Below are positions 10,293 through 14,996 of a stretch of DNA of 16,263 bases, one piece after another; positions within the stretch are counted from its first letter, which is position 1, and every line of letters starts with the position of its first letter. Under the pieces are notes generated by a model. That model was given only the letters and a program-made list of their open reading frames with translations, did no database searches and had not been told where the DNA came from. Origin of the DNA: Deltaproteobacteria bacterium RBG_13_61_14 (GTDB lineage: Bacteria; RBG-13-61-14). A program made the position numbers and the translations under genes. The stretch lies in contig MGQK01000060.1 in assembly GCA_001797815.1 (NCBI GenBank), positions 31,019-47,281 on the forward strand, read 5' to 3'.

Positions 10293-10745
10293 ATGCCTGC
10301 TGGCAACGGCGGTTTGTCCCCCCGCCTTCGCAAAGTCCTGGAAGACATGGCCGAGCGGATTATCCCTTCGGGCGGGCCGGATTATCCGGGTGCCCGGGAC
10401 GTTCATTTGGCCGACCAGGTGATCGAGATGATCCAGAGTTTCCCCGGCGCCATGCGCGGCTTCCGGGCCGCGCTCATGCTCTGGGAGCTCTCCCCCCTCT
10501 TTCTCTCTTTTCAGTTTCGCACTTTCTCCCGGCTTTCGCCCGAAGGCCAAAACCATTATCTCGAAAGCTGGGAGAAAAGCCGGTTCTTCTTTCGCCGGGC
10601 CGCCCTGACCGGACTGAAAGGACTGTTCATGGTCCGCTTCTATGGGGACGCCCGGGTGCATGAAAAGATCGGTTATCGCGAAGGCTGTCTTCAGCCCCTG
10701 GAGCAGGTGGTGCCCCCGTGGTCGCCGGAGGAGGAGGGCCGATGA
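10293..10745 (+). CDS. Gluconate 2-dehydrogenase subunit 3-like small subunit of the GMC enzyme
   Basis: The protein has 150 residues from ATG 10293, chosen for the AAAAGGAG site eight bases upstream; the frame is open from 10269 but that start lacks a site. It begins LSPRLRKVLEDMAERIIPSG at about residues 7-26, the pattern seen at the start of the mature part of gluconate-2-dehydrogenase subunit 3 family proteins (helical, DVHLADQVIEMI). These small proteins partner GMC flavoproteins and are needed for their maturation or export. Here no Tat or Sec signal is present, so the complex is probably cytoplasmic. Its stop overlaps the GMC start as ATGA. Assignment rests on the N-terminal pattern and on the neighbour; the middle (FRAALMLWELSPLFLSF) is hydrophobic and may touch the membrane or a lipid substrate. 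Confidence 0.7.
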   Translation: MPAGNGGLSPRLRKVLEDMAERIIPSGGPDYPGARDVHLADQVIEMIQSFPGAMRGFRAALMLWELSPLFLSFQFRTFSRLSPEGQNHYLESWEKSRFFFRRAALTGLKGLFMVRFYGDARVHEKIGYREGCLQPLEQVVPPWSPEEEGR

Positions 10746-12256
10746 TTTACGAGGGCAAGGATTTCTCGGCCGACGTCCAGGAATCCGCGGAGGTGGTGGT
10801 GATTGGGTCCGGCGCCGGGGGGCCGGTGGTGGCCAAGGAGTTGGCCGAGCAGGGCCACTCGGTGGTGATGCTGGAGGAGGGACCCAAGGTCGAGACCAAG
10901 GATTTCACCCCCGACCCGTTCCGTGCCTTCCGCCGTTTTTACCGCGACGGCGGGACCACCATGGCCCTGGGCCGGCCGGCGGTGCCGTTCCCCCTCGGCC
11001 GCTGCCTGGGCGGGACCACCACGGTCAACTCCGGCACCTGCTTCCGCACCCCGGACAAGATCCTGCGCAAGTGGCGGCGGGAGTTCGGGCTGGAAGGGAT
11101 CGAGCCGGAAAAGATGCGGCCTTATTTCGAGCGGGTGGAAAAGATCATTGACGCGAACCCGGTCACCCCGGAGATCATGGGCCGGAACGGCGAGATCGTG
11201 CTGCGCGGGGCCAAGCAGCTCGGCTACTCCAGCGGGCCGCTCACCCGCAATATGCGGGGCTGCCGCGGCTGCGGGGTGTGCACACTCGGCTGTCCCTCGG
11301 GCGGCAAGCGCGCCACTTTCCTCAACTACATCCCCAGGGCCAGCCACTTCGGGGCCAAAGTCTATTGCGATCTGCGGGTAAGCAAGCTCTTGGTGAAGAA
11401 CGGGGCGGCCGTGGGAGTAGAAGGCGCGATCCTGGACCGGGACTCGGGCAAGCCCCGGCTCAAGTTTTCCGTCTCGGCCAAGCTGGTGGTCCTGGCCGCC
11501 GGCGCGATCTACTCGCCGCTGCTTTTGCTCAAGAACAAGCTGGCCAACGGCTCGGGCCAGGTGGGCCGGAACCTGCGCCTGCATCCGGGTATCCGGGTTT
11601 GTGCATTAATGGATGAGGTGGTGGACGGCTGGCGGGGGGTGCCCCAGGCGGTGTTCGTGGACGAGTTCGCCGACGAGGGGGTGATGCTGGAGGGGGTCTT
11701 CGTGGGCCCGGTCTTGACCGGGCCGGTGTTGCCTTACTTCGGCGAAAAAAACAAGGAGCTGATGTTTAAATATAAGAACCTGGCCGCGCACGGCGCCATG
11801 ATCTTTGACGAGACCCGCGGCCGGGTCAGGCTCGGGCTTCGCGGCCGGCCGCTGATTACCTACCAGATGATCCCGGAGGACGTGAAGAAGGGCGTCAAGG
11901 CCATTGCCTACACCGCGGAAATTTTCTTTGCCGCCGGCGCGAAAAAAGTTTACCCCACCGTCTCCTGGATGCCGGAGATGACCTCCCCCCGCCAGGTGCG
12001 CGAACTCTTGAGCGGCAGGGTCAAGGGCGCGGACCTCGAGTTCATGGCCTTCCACCCCATGGGCACCTGCCGCATGGGCACCGACCGCCGCGACTCGGTG
12101 GTGGACCCCTACGGCGAGAGCTGGGAAATCAAGAACCTCTTCGTCTGCGACGCCAGCATCTTCCCGAGCTGCCTGGGCGTCAACCCCATGGAAAGCATCA
12201 TGGCCTTTGCCAACCGCAGCGCGGATTATATGCAGGAGATGAAGTTGAAAGGGTGA
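10742..12256 (+). CDS. GMC family FAD oxidoreductase with internal CxxCxxCxxxC motif
   Basis: The protein has 504 residues from ATG 10742, which overlaps the upstream stop and follows GGAGGAGG at 10727-10734. The FAD-binding dinucleotide fold VVVIGSGAGGPVVAKEL lies at 18-34. GGTTTVNSGTCFR is the GMC substrate/FAD segment, and the C-terminal HPMGTCRMG begins at H438 with VNPMES (N481) behind, the usual catalytic His/Asn region. GMC enzymes oxidise alcohols with flavin as acceptor. C174, C177, C180 and C184 (GCRGCGVCTLGCPSGGK) form a ferredoxin-like cysteine array, known from long-chain alcohol oxidase and cholesterol-oxidase-like GMC members; it may bind an iron-sulfur cluster. No signal peptide is visible. 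With the small subunit, an SCP2-like protein and an FAD oxidase next to it, a hydrophobic alcohol is a plausible substrate, but this is inference. Confidence 0.9.
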   Translation: MIYEGKDFSADVQESAEVVVIGSGAGGPVVAKELAEQGHSVVMLEEGPKVETKDFTPDPFRAFRRFYRDGGTTMALGRPAVPFPLGRCLGGTTTVNSGTCFRTPDKILRKWRREFGLEGIEPEKMRPYFERVEKIIDANPVTPEIMGRNGEIVLRGAKQLGYSSGPLTRNMRGCRGCGVCTLGCPSGGKRATFLNYIPRASHFGAKVYCDLRVSKLLVKNGAAVGVEGAILDRDSGKPRLKFSVSAKLVVLAAGAIYSPLLLLKNKLANGSGQVGRNLRLHPGIRVCALMDEVVDGWRGVPQAVFVDEFADEGVMLEGVFVGPVLTGPVLPYFGEKNKELMFKYKNLAAHGAMIFDETRGRVRLGLRGRPLITYQMIPEDVKKGVKAIAYTAEIFFAAGAKKVYPTVSWMPEMTSPRQVRELLSGRVKGADLEFMAFHPMGTCRMGTDRRDSVVDPYGESWEIKNLFVCDASIFPSCLGVNPMESIMAFANRSADYMQEMKLKG

Positions 12257-12291
12257 GGAGTGAAGGGTGAAAGATGAAGGAAGAAATAATG

Positions 12292-12443
12292 GTAGCCGCG
12301 ACCGCCCCGGTCGCGGATAAAAAAAGGAAGCATGACAAGGAACAAGCGGTCGGGAATCCCCGTTAAAAGTGAAGTGGCCGGTATTTTGAAGGAATGGAAA
12401 TAAGGAAGGAAGATTAACCCGCGACCGGGGCGGTCGCGGCTAC
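12292..12443. repeat. REPIN-like pair of GTAG-headed hairpins
   Basis: The left unit at 12292-12316 is GTAG, then CCGCGACCG, loop CCC, CGGTCGCGG: a perfect 9-bp stem. The right unit at 12419-12443 is its inverse, CCGCGACCG, loop GGG, CGGTCGCGG, then CTAC. The 102 bases between are purine-rich and AT-richer, with no gene. Two inverted REP units with GTAG heads outermost match the REPIN design mobilised by RAYT transposases. It lies 35 bases after the GMC stop and could also end or stabilise that transcript. Confidence 0.8.
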
Positions 12444-12447
12444 AATT

Positions 12448-13449
12448 GTGGAAAATGAAATGCTTCAATATTTAAATGCTTACTCCTCTTTAATTATTGC
12501 AATTGCGACAGTGGCACTCGTAATTGGAACTTTTATCTCAGTTTGTGTAATAAGGTATCAAACTCGAGAGTCTGCTCGGCCGAAGCTTGTTGTCCTTCCC
12601 GGAATTGTGAATATGAATAGAGGAAACCAACTATCCCTGTCTCTTTTCTTGGTGAATGCAGGAAAAGGGTCTGCTTACGATATTAGAATCGAATGGAAAT
12701 ATTCTGGGTTTGAGGCTCCCATGCCCGCGGTGCTTCAACCGGGGGAGCATGGCGAACTCCAATACGATCCGGACATTACTCTGAGGATGGAGGGCATCAG
12801 GCGTATAGACCACGTTAAGGTTCCGCCTCTCAAACTTAGTTATAGAGATATTTATAACAAGATATACGAAGAGGATATCCCTGAATATGACTGGCGCAAC
12901 GTAGGCCAACAACGTGACTACTTGCAGCGAGTAAGGCTAGACCCTGGCAACGCAAAATTTATTTACTCATTGAGAGATAACGATATTAAACAAGTTAATA
13001 GTAATCAAGGGAGTGTCGTTAACTCAAATCGTAGCCGCGACCGCGCTTCTGTCGCGATTTCTGGCGAGGATTCGAACAAAGGAGGAGATACCGTGGAAGT
13101 CGTTTTGGAAAAACCGGAATCCATGAACCTGCTCGGATTGATCTTGAAAATGATTATCGAGCGGAACCTTAAGCAGGGCATGATGGCGGACCTGGTGGCC
13201 AACACCCGGGGCAACCTGCGCCTGGGCGCCGGGCAGATGAAGGCCACGCTCAAGTTCGAGGGCGAGCGGGTGGTGGTGGCCCGCGACTGGCTGATCCCGG
13301 CCCGGGCCAAGGTGGCCGCCTCCCTGGACACCTTCCTCGCCATCGGCCTGGGCAAGAACCCGGTCATTCCCTTCCTGCTCGGCAAGATCTCGCTGGGCGG
13401 CAACCTGCTCTGGCTCTTGAAGCTGATGCCGGTGTTTCAAGTTAAGTAG
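12448..13449 (+). CDS. AT-rich unknown membrane-anchored protein fused in frame to the SCP2-like gene
   Basis: I do not recognise the first part. The frame runs 333 residues from GTG 12448; ATG 12460, with GGAA six bases upstream, may be the true start. Residues about 12-35 are one strong membrane helix (SSLIIAIATVALVIGTFISVCV), followed by a short basic turn and about 150 residues that look beta-rich (LSLSLFLVNAGKGSAYDIRI), with a late asparagine-rich end. This part, up to about 13030, is AT-rich: 12481-12540 is 22 of 60 G+C, against 41 of 60 in 13201-13260. It then crosses a GTAG-headed REP-like hairpin and enters the SCP2-like gene without a stop. That gene has its own strong ribosome site, so the fusion is probably accidental. 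The natural C-terminus of the AT-rich protein may have been lost. Confidence 0.5.
   Translation: MENEMLQYLNAYSSLIIAIATVALVIGTFISVCVIRYQTRESARPKLVVLPGIVNMNRGNQLSLSLFLVNAGKGSAYDIRIEWKYSGFEAPMPAVLQPGEHGELQYDPDITLRMEGIRRIDHVKVPPLKLSYRDIYNKIYEEDIPEYDWRNVGQQRDYLQRVRLDPGNAKFIYSLRDNDIKQVNSNQGSVVNSNRSRDRASVAISGEDSNKGGDTVEVVLEKPESMNLLGLILKMIIERNLKQGMMADLVANTRGNLRLGAGQMKATLKFEGERVVVARDWLIPARAKVAASLDTFLAIGLGKNPVIPFLLGKISLGGNLLWLLKLMPVFQVK
13031..13056 (+). repeat. Single GTAG-headed REP-like hairpin inside the fused ORF
   Basis: GTAGCCGCGACCG at 13031-13043 is identical to the head of the unit at 12292. A 6-bp stem CGCGAC/GTCGCG (13036-13041 and 13051-13056) closes a nine-base loop, so the hairpin is a diverged copy. 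It marks exactly where AT-rich sequence stops and GC-rich sequence begins. It is translated in frame as part of the fused ORF. Confidence 0.65.
13093..13449 (+). CDS. SCP2-like sterol/lipid carrier domain protein
   Basis: The protein has 118 residues from GTG 13093, which has a near-perfect AAAGGAGGAG at 13078-13087 with a five- or six-base spacer; this makes it a gene of its own within the longer frame. The pattern (GNLRLGAGQMKATLKFEGER, then ARAKVAASLDTFLAIGLGK, then LLGKISLGGNLLWLLKLMP) follows the SCP2 fold order: beta sheet, helix, helix, and a final GK...GG...L segment. SCP2 domains bind sterols, fatty acyl chains or other hydrophobic ligands in the cytoplasm. Placed between a GMC oxidoreductase and an FAD oxidase, it may present a hydrophobic substrate. 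No cysteine or metal motif is visible. The assignment is by pattern only and could be wrong for another small alpha/beta lipid-binding family. Confidence 0.55.
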   Translation: MEVVLEKPESMNLLGLILKMIIERNLKQGMMADLVANTRGNLRLGAGQMKATLKFEGERVVVARDWLIPARAKVAASLDTFLAIGLGKNPVIPFLLGKISLGGNLLWLLKLMPVFQVK

Positions 13450-13450
13450 T

Positions 13451-13490
13451 ATTTCGGATTGCAGATTGGGGATTGCGGATTGCGGATTGA
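13451..13490. repeat. Short tandem repeat of ATTGCGG units in the intergenic gap
   Basis: The gap 13450-13523 contains several imperfect copies of GGATTGC (CGGATTGCAGATTGGGG, then GGATTGCGGATTGCGGATTG). It is unlike the flanking coding sequence and resembles low-complexity debris seen in intergenic spacers of some uncultured phyla. It ends shortly before the ribosome site AAGGAAG of the following gene. No hairpin and no spacer structure are visible. Confidence 0.6.
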
Positions 13491-13523
13491 AGATAATTAG
13501 AGAAGAAGGGAAAGGAAGTTTCA

Positions 13524-14996
13524 ATGAATGCGGATGAAATCAAGAAGCGGCTGGTGGCGATCCTCGGACCGGAGCGGGTTAACACCGATGACGCCACCCT
13601 GGAGAAATACAGCAAGGACATGACCGAGGCGCCGGAAGCGCGGCCGGGGTTCGTGGTCTTTCCCCAGACCACCGAGGAAGTCGCTGCGATCGTAAAGCTC
13701 GCGAACGAGGCCAAGCTGCCGCTCACCCCCCGGGTGGCCGGGACCAACCTGGGCGGGCTGACCATTCCTTCGCCCGGCGGTTGTGTAATAGATCTGACCC
13801 AGATGAACCGGGTGCTGGAGGTGAACCCCTCCGAGCGCTATGCCATCATCGAGCCGGGCGTCACCTTCGAGGGGATCAAGAAGCACCTGGACGAGAACCG
13901 CTACGACCTGGTGATCGGCTACCCGCTCTCGCCGCCCTGGACCTCGGTGGTGGCCAACTGCCTGCTCGACGGGCTCGGCAACTTAAGCTTCCGCTACGGC
14001 ACCATGGCCGAGTGGATCAACGGGATCGAGGCGGTGCTGCCCACCGGGGAGGTGATCCGGGCCGGGTCCTGCGCTCTCTCGCCGCTGTGGTTCAACCGGG
14101 CGCCGATGCCCGACCTGGTGGGGCTCTTCGTCTCCTGGCAAGGCACCACCGGCATCGTCACCAAGATGGCGGTGCAACTGTGGCCCCGGCGGGCCGAGCG
14201 GCTGCGCACCTTCATCATGTTCTACACCTGGAAAGAGGCCTTCGAGATGCTGGCCCGCTTCGCCCGCTACAACATCTACGATGACATCGGCGGGCTGAGT
14301 TGGGTCACTTCCAAGCTCTTATTCAAAATTGAAAAACCAGGGCCCAAGGACCCGAACGAGCCGATCTTCTTCCTCTACCTCGACATCTCGGCGGAAGATA
14401 AAGAAGAGCTGAACCTGAAGATCAAGATGATGAACCGGGAGCTGGAGCGGGGCCGCGACCAGGGCATGCAGATCGAAAGCCCGATGGACGTGAAGACGCT
14501 CACCTCGATCAACCCGGACTTTGACAAGTTCGCGGAGTTCCCCACCTACCTCGACTTCCTGATCGAGACCAAGGGCCGGGGCCTGACCTGGGTGGGCACC
14601 TACGGCCCGGTCAACCGGTTAGCCGAGGGCGCGGAAAAGTGCGAGAAGATCATGTGGGCCCACGGCTTCCCGCCGACCCTGGTGATCCGGCCCATGAAGG
14701 GCGGGCATTACGCCGTGCTCCGGTGCATCACCATCTTCGACCGCTCGGACCCGGAGGACCGCAAGCGGGCCGCGGCGGTGAACGCGGCGCTGTGCGACCA
14801 GGTGCTGGAGCTGGGCTACATCCCTTACAAGGCGCCGGCCTGGGCGGTGCGCAAATTCTTGCCCCGCCTGGACCAGGGCTACCTGCATACGCTGCAGCGG
14901 ATCAAGGATCTCCTGGACCCGAACGGGATCATGAACCCGGGCAAGTGGCTCTTGGGCACCGAGGAATTGAAGCAAGCGCTAAAGACCAGGGAATGA
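13524..14996 (+). CDS. FAD-linked oxidase, VAO/PCMH family (GlcD or 4-cresol dehydrogenase-like)
   Basis: The protein has 490 residues. The FAD-binding PCMH domain spans about 41-220: RPGFVVFPQTTEEVAAIVKL at 40-59, RVAGTNLGG at 70-78, PGGCVIDLTQMNRV at 84-97, then RYGTMAEWINGIEAVLPTGE at 157-176. The second half is the family's substrate domain, ending LDPNGIMNPGKW, a conserved tail. Members oxidise alpha-hydroxy acids, phenolic alcohols or p-cresol-like substrates with bound FAD, and pass electrons to an external acceptor. The RVAGT loop replaces the more common RGGGT. The tail (GYIPYKAPAWAVRKF) reminds me of 4-cresol dehydrogenase flavoproteins, but I see no cytochrome partner. AAGGAAG at about 13512-13518 precedes ATG 13524. 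It closes the plus-strand oxidoreductase cluster. Confidence 0.85.
   Translation: MNADEIKKRLVAILGPERVNTDDATLEKYSKDMTEAPEARPGFVVFPQTTEEVAAIVKLANEAKLPLTPRVAGTNLGGLTIPSPGGCVIDLTQMNRVLEVNPSERYAIIEPGVTFEGIKKHLDENRYDLVIGYPLSPPWTSVVANCLLDGLGNLSFRYGTMAEWINGIEAVLPTGEVIRAGSCALSPLWFNRAPMPDLVGLFVSWQGTTGIVTKMAVQLWPRRAERLRTFIMFYTWKEAFEMLARFARYNIYDDIGGLSWVTSKLLFKIEKPGPKDPNEPIFFLYLDISAEDKEELNLKIKMMNRELERGRDQGMQIESPMDVKTLTSINPDFDKFAEFPTYLDFLIETKGRGLTWVGTYGPVNRLAEGAEKCEKIMWAHGFPPTLVIRPMKGGHYAVLRCITIFDRSDPEDRKRAAAVNAALCDQVLELGYIPYKAPAWAVRKFLPRLDQGYLHTLQRIKDLLDPNGIMNPGKWLLGTEELKQALKTRE

Follow-up and report, generated by a model that had tools for sequence, protein, structure and literature searches.

Within the window, a 16,263-nt stretch of contig MGQK01000060.1 from Deltaproteobacteria bacterium RBG_13_61_14, one open reading frame (ORF) of low G+C content fills the space between the GTAG heads of two REP hairpins. 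This arrangement raises the question of whether the enclosed DNA was captured and moved as cargo between REP units, as the first-pass annotation had suggested, or whether a foreign gene and REPs came to lie side by side. The second reading is the likely one, namely a horizontally acquired orphan membrane-protein gene upstream of an SCP2-FAD gene pair with ordinary GTAG REPs at its edges. The features of the locus are:

10718..12256, + strand: GMC oxidoreductase gene, upstream; the first REP begins 35 nt past its stop
12292..12316, + strand: REP unit 1, GTAGCCGCGACCG-CCC-CGGTCGCGG, forming the left side of an HH doublet with the GTAG outside; covariance model score 44.5 bits
12317..12418, no strand: REP doublet interior, 102 nt, 41% G+C
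12419..12443, - strand: REP unit 2, unit 1 in reverse orientation, with its CTAC head at 12440-12443; covariance model score 44.5 bits
12448..13030, + strand: low-GC3 ORF, start GTG at 12448 or ATG at 12460, stop codon absent before the third REP
13031..13057, + strand: REP unit 3, degenerate, CTGTCGCGA in place of CGGTCGCGG, inside the open frame; covariance model score 41.1 bits
13093..13449, + strand: SCP2-family gene, GTG start and AAGGAGG ribosome-binding site of its own; PF02036, E 2.4e-6, 28.2 bits with a cut-off of 21.3
13524..14996, + strand: FAD-linked oxidase gene; the SCP2-FAD order is conserved in genomes G182 and G016

REP Units at the Locus and Across the Genome

All three GTAG hairpins proved real and lie where the first-pass annotation had placed them. 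Their reading as GTAG-type REPs was upheld, and the genome has transposases of the Y1/RAYT class. Units 1 and 2 are perfect, mutually facing copies of GTAGCCGCGACCG-CCC-CGGTCGCGG; inverted, with their GTAGs outside and a 102-nt spacer, they fold into one long hairpin (DNA fold of 12288-12447, z = -7.4) and so constitute a REPIN (HH doublet). A genome search for a full copy of the doublet interior elsewhere found none. Unit 3 has another loop and two stem changes relative to units 1 and 2, and an 18-nt inverted match of 94% connects unit 2 with unit 3. The heads on either side of the block belong to different elements: the left one is the outer end of the HH doublet and the right one that of an independent single unit. 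In the terms of Di Nocera et al. (2013, PMC3733652) they form a TT neighbourhood at 587 bp, well over the usual dimer spacer.

An exact pattern search of the genome retrieved 28 units compared to none for the reversed control pattern, and the covariance model found approximately 45 at E<=0.01, nearly all far apart and mostly single, plus one strong unit of the same REP in the same-order genome G002. The many, mostly intergenic copies with an unpaired GTAG and a palindrome identify a GTAG-type REP, and a rough ORF caller places 19 of the 28 exact units no more than 170 nt from the 3' end of a gene. GTAG REPs have been described as singletons and HH dimers with mostly 20-100 bp spacers that adjoin gene 3' ends and are sometimes intragenic (Di Nocera et al., 2013, PMC3733652), with which the placement of the present family agrees. 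Further features shared with the GTAG-tagged families and HH dimers of that study and with REPINs (Bertels and Rainey, 2011, PMC3116915) are the 8-9 bp perfect stem and the small loop, whereas the family differs in its stem CCGCGACCG within an isolated lineage, its few units (~45), and a cognate RAYT that did not turn up in the assembly. GTAG REPs thereby gain one more family, from a poorly sampled lineage. If 45 units were scattered uniformly over 4.74 Mb, approximately 0.3 neighbouring pairs within 611 bp would be expected, a hand estimate that would be higher if only intergenic space were open to REPs, and a third unit near the doublet is thus unremarkable.

Transposases of the Genome

The genome contains 19 Y1_Tnp matches, and a search of the flanks of these 19 loci found the CCGCGACCG REP in none. 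REPtrons and TIRtrons are RAYT and TIRYT transposase genes with flanking REPs or terminal inverted repeats (Di Nocera et al., 2013, PMC3733652); a RAYT gene flanked by the REP of the locus was found at 0 of the 19 loci in an assembly that is 95% complete, and the cognate enzyme may have been lost or be missing from the assembly. The absence of the CCGCGACCG REP from their flanks is what sets the Y1/RAYT-class genes found here apart from the published REPtrons and TIRtrons.

Among these genes, at least 10 long ones (L066-L084) carry terminal inverted repeats of the TIRYT kind that start with GGGGTCAG or GGGGACAG. A short RAYT gene (L072 1729-2240, G000:C83) is closely followed by a GTAGCCCGCCCTTG...CAAGGGTGGG REP and preceded by a related hairpin, and is a GTAG REPtron of another stem family.

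Composition of the Block and Its Foreign-Looking Gene

The 587 nt from CTAC to GTAG (12444-13030) have one frame that is free of stops throughout (195 codons), as had been claimed, and an equally long open run in any frame occurred in 0 of 2000 dinucleotide shuffles of the block (maximum 152). The block is AT-rich as first described, with a measured G+C of 42.1% rather than 37%, and the downstream value of 68% becomes 61% for SCP2 overall and 65% after its codon 20. The proposed coincidence of the composition step with both GTAGs fails: a three-segment likelihood fit placed the low-GC stretch at ~12225-13173 with support ranges of 12180-12317 for the left and 13151-13194 for the right edge, which exclude 12444 and 13031, and edges at the two GTAGs were 7.8 log units worse. 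The low-GC region sets in as the GMC gene ends and stops within the 5' end of SCP2, with 40% G+C in the 35 nt before unit 1, and 43-49% in the SCP2 leader and first 20 codons. Other REPs of the genome also lie in fairly AT-rich DNA, their flanks of up to 100 nt averaging 53% G+C compared to 58.5% for the 3-kb loci. Codon usage does shift at the block (GC3 of 0.40 versus 0.88 in GMC and 0.89 in SCP2 and FAD), and on this basis the enclosed gene was judged foreign.

The ORF encodes an N-terminal transmembrane helix and a domain with the motif NAGKGSAYDI. It begins 4-16 nt after the CTAC and has no stop ahead of the GTAG; this tight 5' abutment to a REP is unusual among the 28 exact units, and a strong ribosome-binding site is absent upstream. 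The PHROG 11802 profile matched weakly (E 2e-5) over residues 2-79 in the N-terminal part only, while three relatives from other genomes (L122-L124) align along the ORF length with 16-22% identity. These relatives are AT-rich against their own surroundings (31-33% versus 40-51% G+C), and the present REP is absent around them. The protein distantly resembles the small membrane proteins around PHROG 11802, a group of unknown function, in its N-terminal helix, NxGKGxAYDI motif, and AT-rich accessory character, and is set apart by its low identity and by a copy that enters a REP without its own stop. Since the C-termini of the relatives fall, in a weak alignment, where the last residues of the ORF before unit 3 align, the foreign gene is probably nearly complete with only its end missing. 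Searches of the ORF protein against plasmids, phages, IMG/VR, and NCBIfam returned nothing, Pfam gave only sub-threshold noise, and 386 genomes searched yielded a single marginal match of no credible support. An AlphaFold model of the ORF alone had a mean pLDDT of 34 and was left unused.

Downstream, the frame continues open across unit 3 into SCP2, as the foreign gene lacks a stop ahead of the REP. That the fused 333-aa ORF makes a single real protein was rejected as the main reading, SCP2 having its own AAGGAGG site and start, while some fusion may be made.

Origin of the REP-Bracketed Gene

The REP units, foreign codon usage, open frame, and single copy are direct observations, and they are best accommodated by the simpler alternative already named in the first-pass annotation, a foreign gene with REPs at its ends. 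A foreign orphan gene would have been inserted by horizontal acquisition between the GMC gene and the SCP2-FAD pair, with an HH doublet (REPIN) past the GMC stop on the left and a single REP at or near the foreign gene's 3' end on the right. The bracketing would then represent placement rather than the two ends of one transposable unit, as the REPs of this genome favour sites near gene ends. The REPs would have come after, or independently of, the foreign gene, and the third REP may have replaced or overrun its stop. In line with this reading, different genes and no such block stand upstream of the SCP2-FAD pairs in G182 and G016. A search for a close relative of the locus with or without the block found none; the order of events, including the arrival of the REPs, is accordingly one that we infer rather than see directly. 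The close abutment of the ORF by REPs on both sides counts against this explanation.

That abutment by both heads would be expected had a RAYT/TnpA-REP enzyme taken DNA lying between two REP heads, by excision or copying, and placed it at this site, and the genome does hold 19 Y1_Tnp matches and one GTAG REPtron of a different stem. Such REP-bounded cargo is nevertheless very improbable: the heads pointing at the block, which face inward, are parts of an HH doublet and of a degenerate single unit, the composition edges miss the GTAGs, and the Y1_Tnp genes were found without the CCGCGACCG REP in their flanks. The block is single-copy in the genome, and neither a further copy nor several REP-bounded blocks in the same geometry were found. 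Units lie within 3 kb of each other in only one other place, on contig C122. This pair encloses haem-synthesis and radical-SAM genes (names from reading translations) and was rejected as a second bracketed block, as its second unit is degenerate with the head on the other side and the enclosed genes are ordinary housekeeping ones. No other cargo-like block between REPs turned up in the genome, and the claim of movement between REP units is unsupported. Even a bracket as striking as this one, GTAG to GTAG, can form where there is no evidence that cargo was transported.

DNA capture beside REPs does occur in this genome. BLAST of the REP flanks against the fetched loci returned intergenic repeats arranged as a mosaic and, in one clear case, the copy of a gene fragment. 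A REPIN-like element (L036 1501-1752, G000:C67:36930-37181) pairs a full REP with a half REP in facing orientation. Between them, joined directly to the half REP, is a 98-bp stretch 99% identical to C76:49360-49457, which is part of an intact homocysteine-methyltransferase-like gene (name from reading the sequence). As DNA gained inside a REP pair, this copy keeps the capture idea of the first-pass annotation alive, but it is host-derived and sits within a heads-out pair, and could be explained by a templated repair insertion. The broader notion that REPs of this lineage act as capture points for DNA from nearby or from foreign sources, via a RAYT enzyme or hairpin-primed repair, with both the AT-rich gene and the C67 fragment as captured inserts, is given little credence. 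If true, REPs would gain a role in gene acquisition that is not described in the REP papers cited here.

A decayed remnant, in which a larger foreign island was trimmed to this gene and its flanks cut to the REP heads by rearrangements at REPs, is unlikely. Both ORF edges entering REPs, the lack of a strong upstream ribosome-binding site, the missing stop, and the inverted match between units 2 and 3 would suit it, while homologous recombination at inverted repeats yields inversions rather than deletions, the frame is intact across 195 codons, and the alignment of the protein, albeit weak, extends almost to the C-terminus of its relatives. An assembly artefact that joined two unrelated sequences at a repeat is suggested by copies of the same repeat on both sides of the block in a MAG-like assembly of 132 contigs; it is extremely improbable, as the repeats are just 25-34 nt, short for assemblers, and far from contig ends.

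Other Repeats

Beyond the family at the locus, the fetched loci of this genome contained further GTAG hairpin families such as GTAGGGGCGC(A/G)ATT, GTAGCCCACCCTT, and GTAGGGGCGGCTCG. The interval 13450-13523 and the flanks of many REPs are intergenic DNA pieced together, as a mosaic, from short repeats resembling GGATTGCGGATTG and GTTGGCGGTTGGC, many of which are common to several loci. Two of the 28 exact CCGCGACCG units occur in frame, one in each of two paralogous type IIG restriction-modification-like ORFs, L026 (C33:4373) and L029 (C53:939), in both of which the REP encodes VAATAPRSR.
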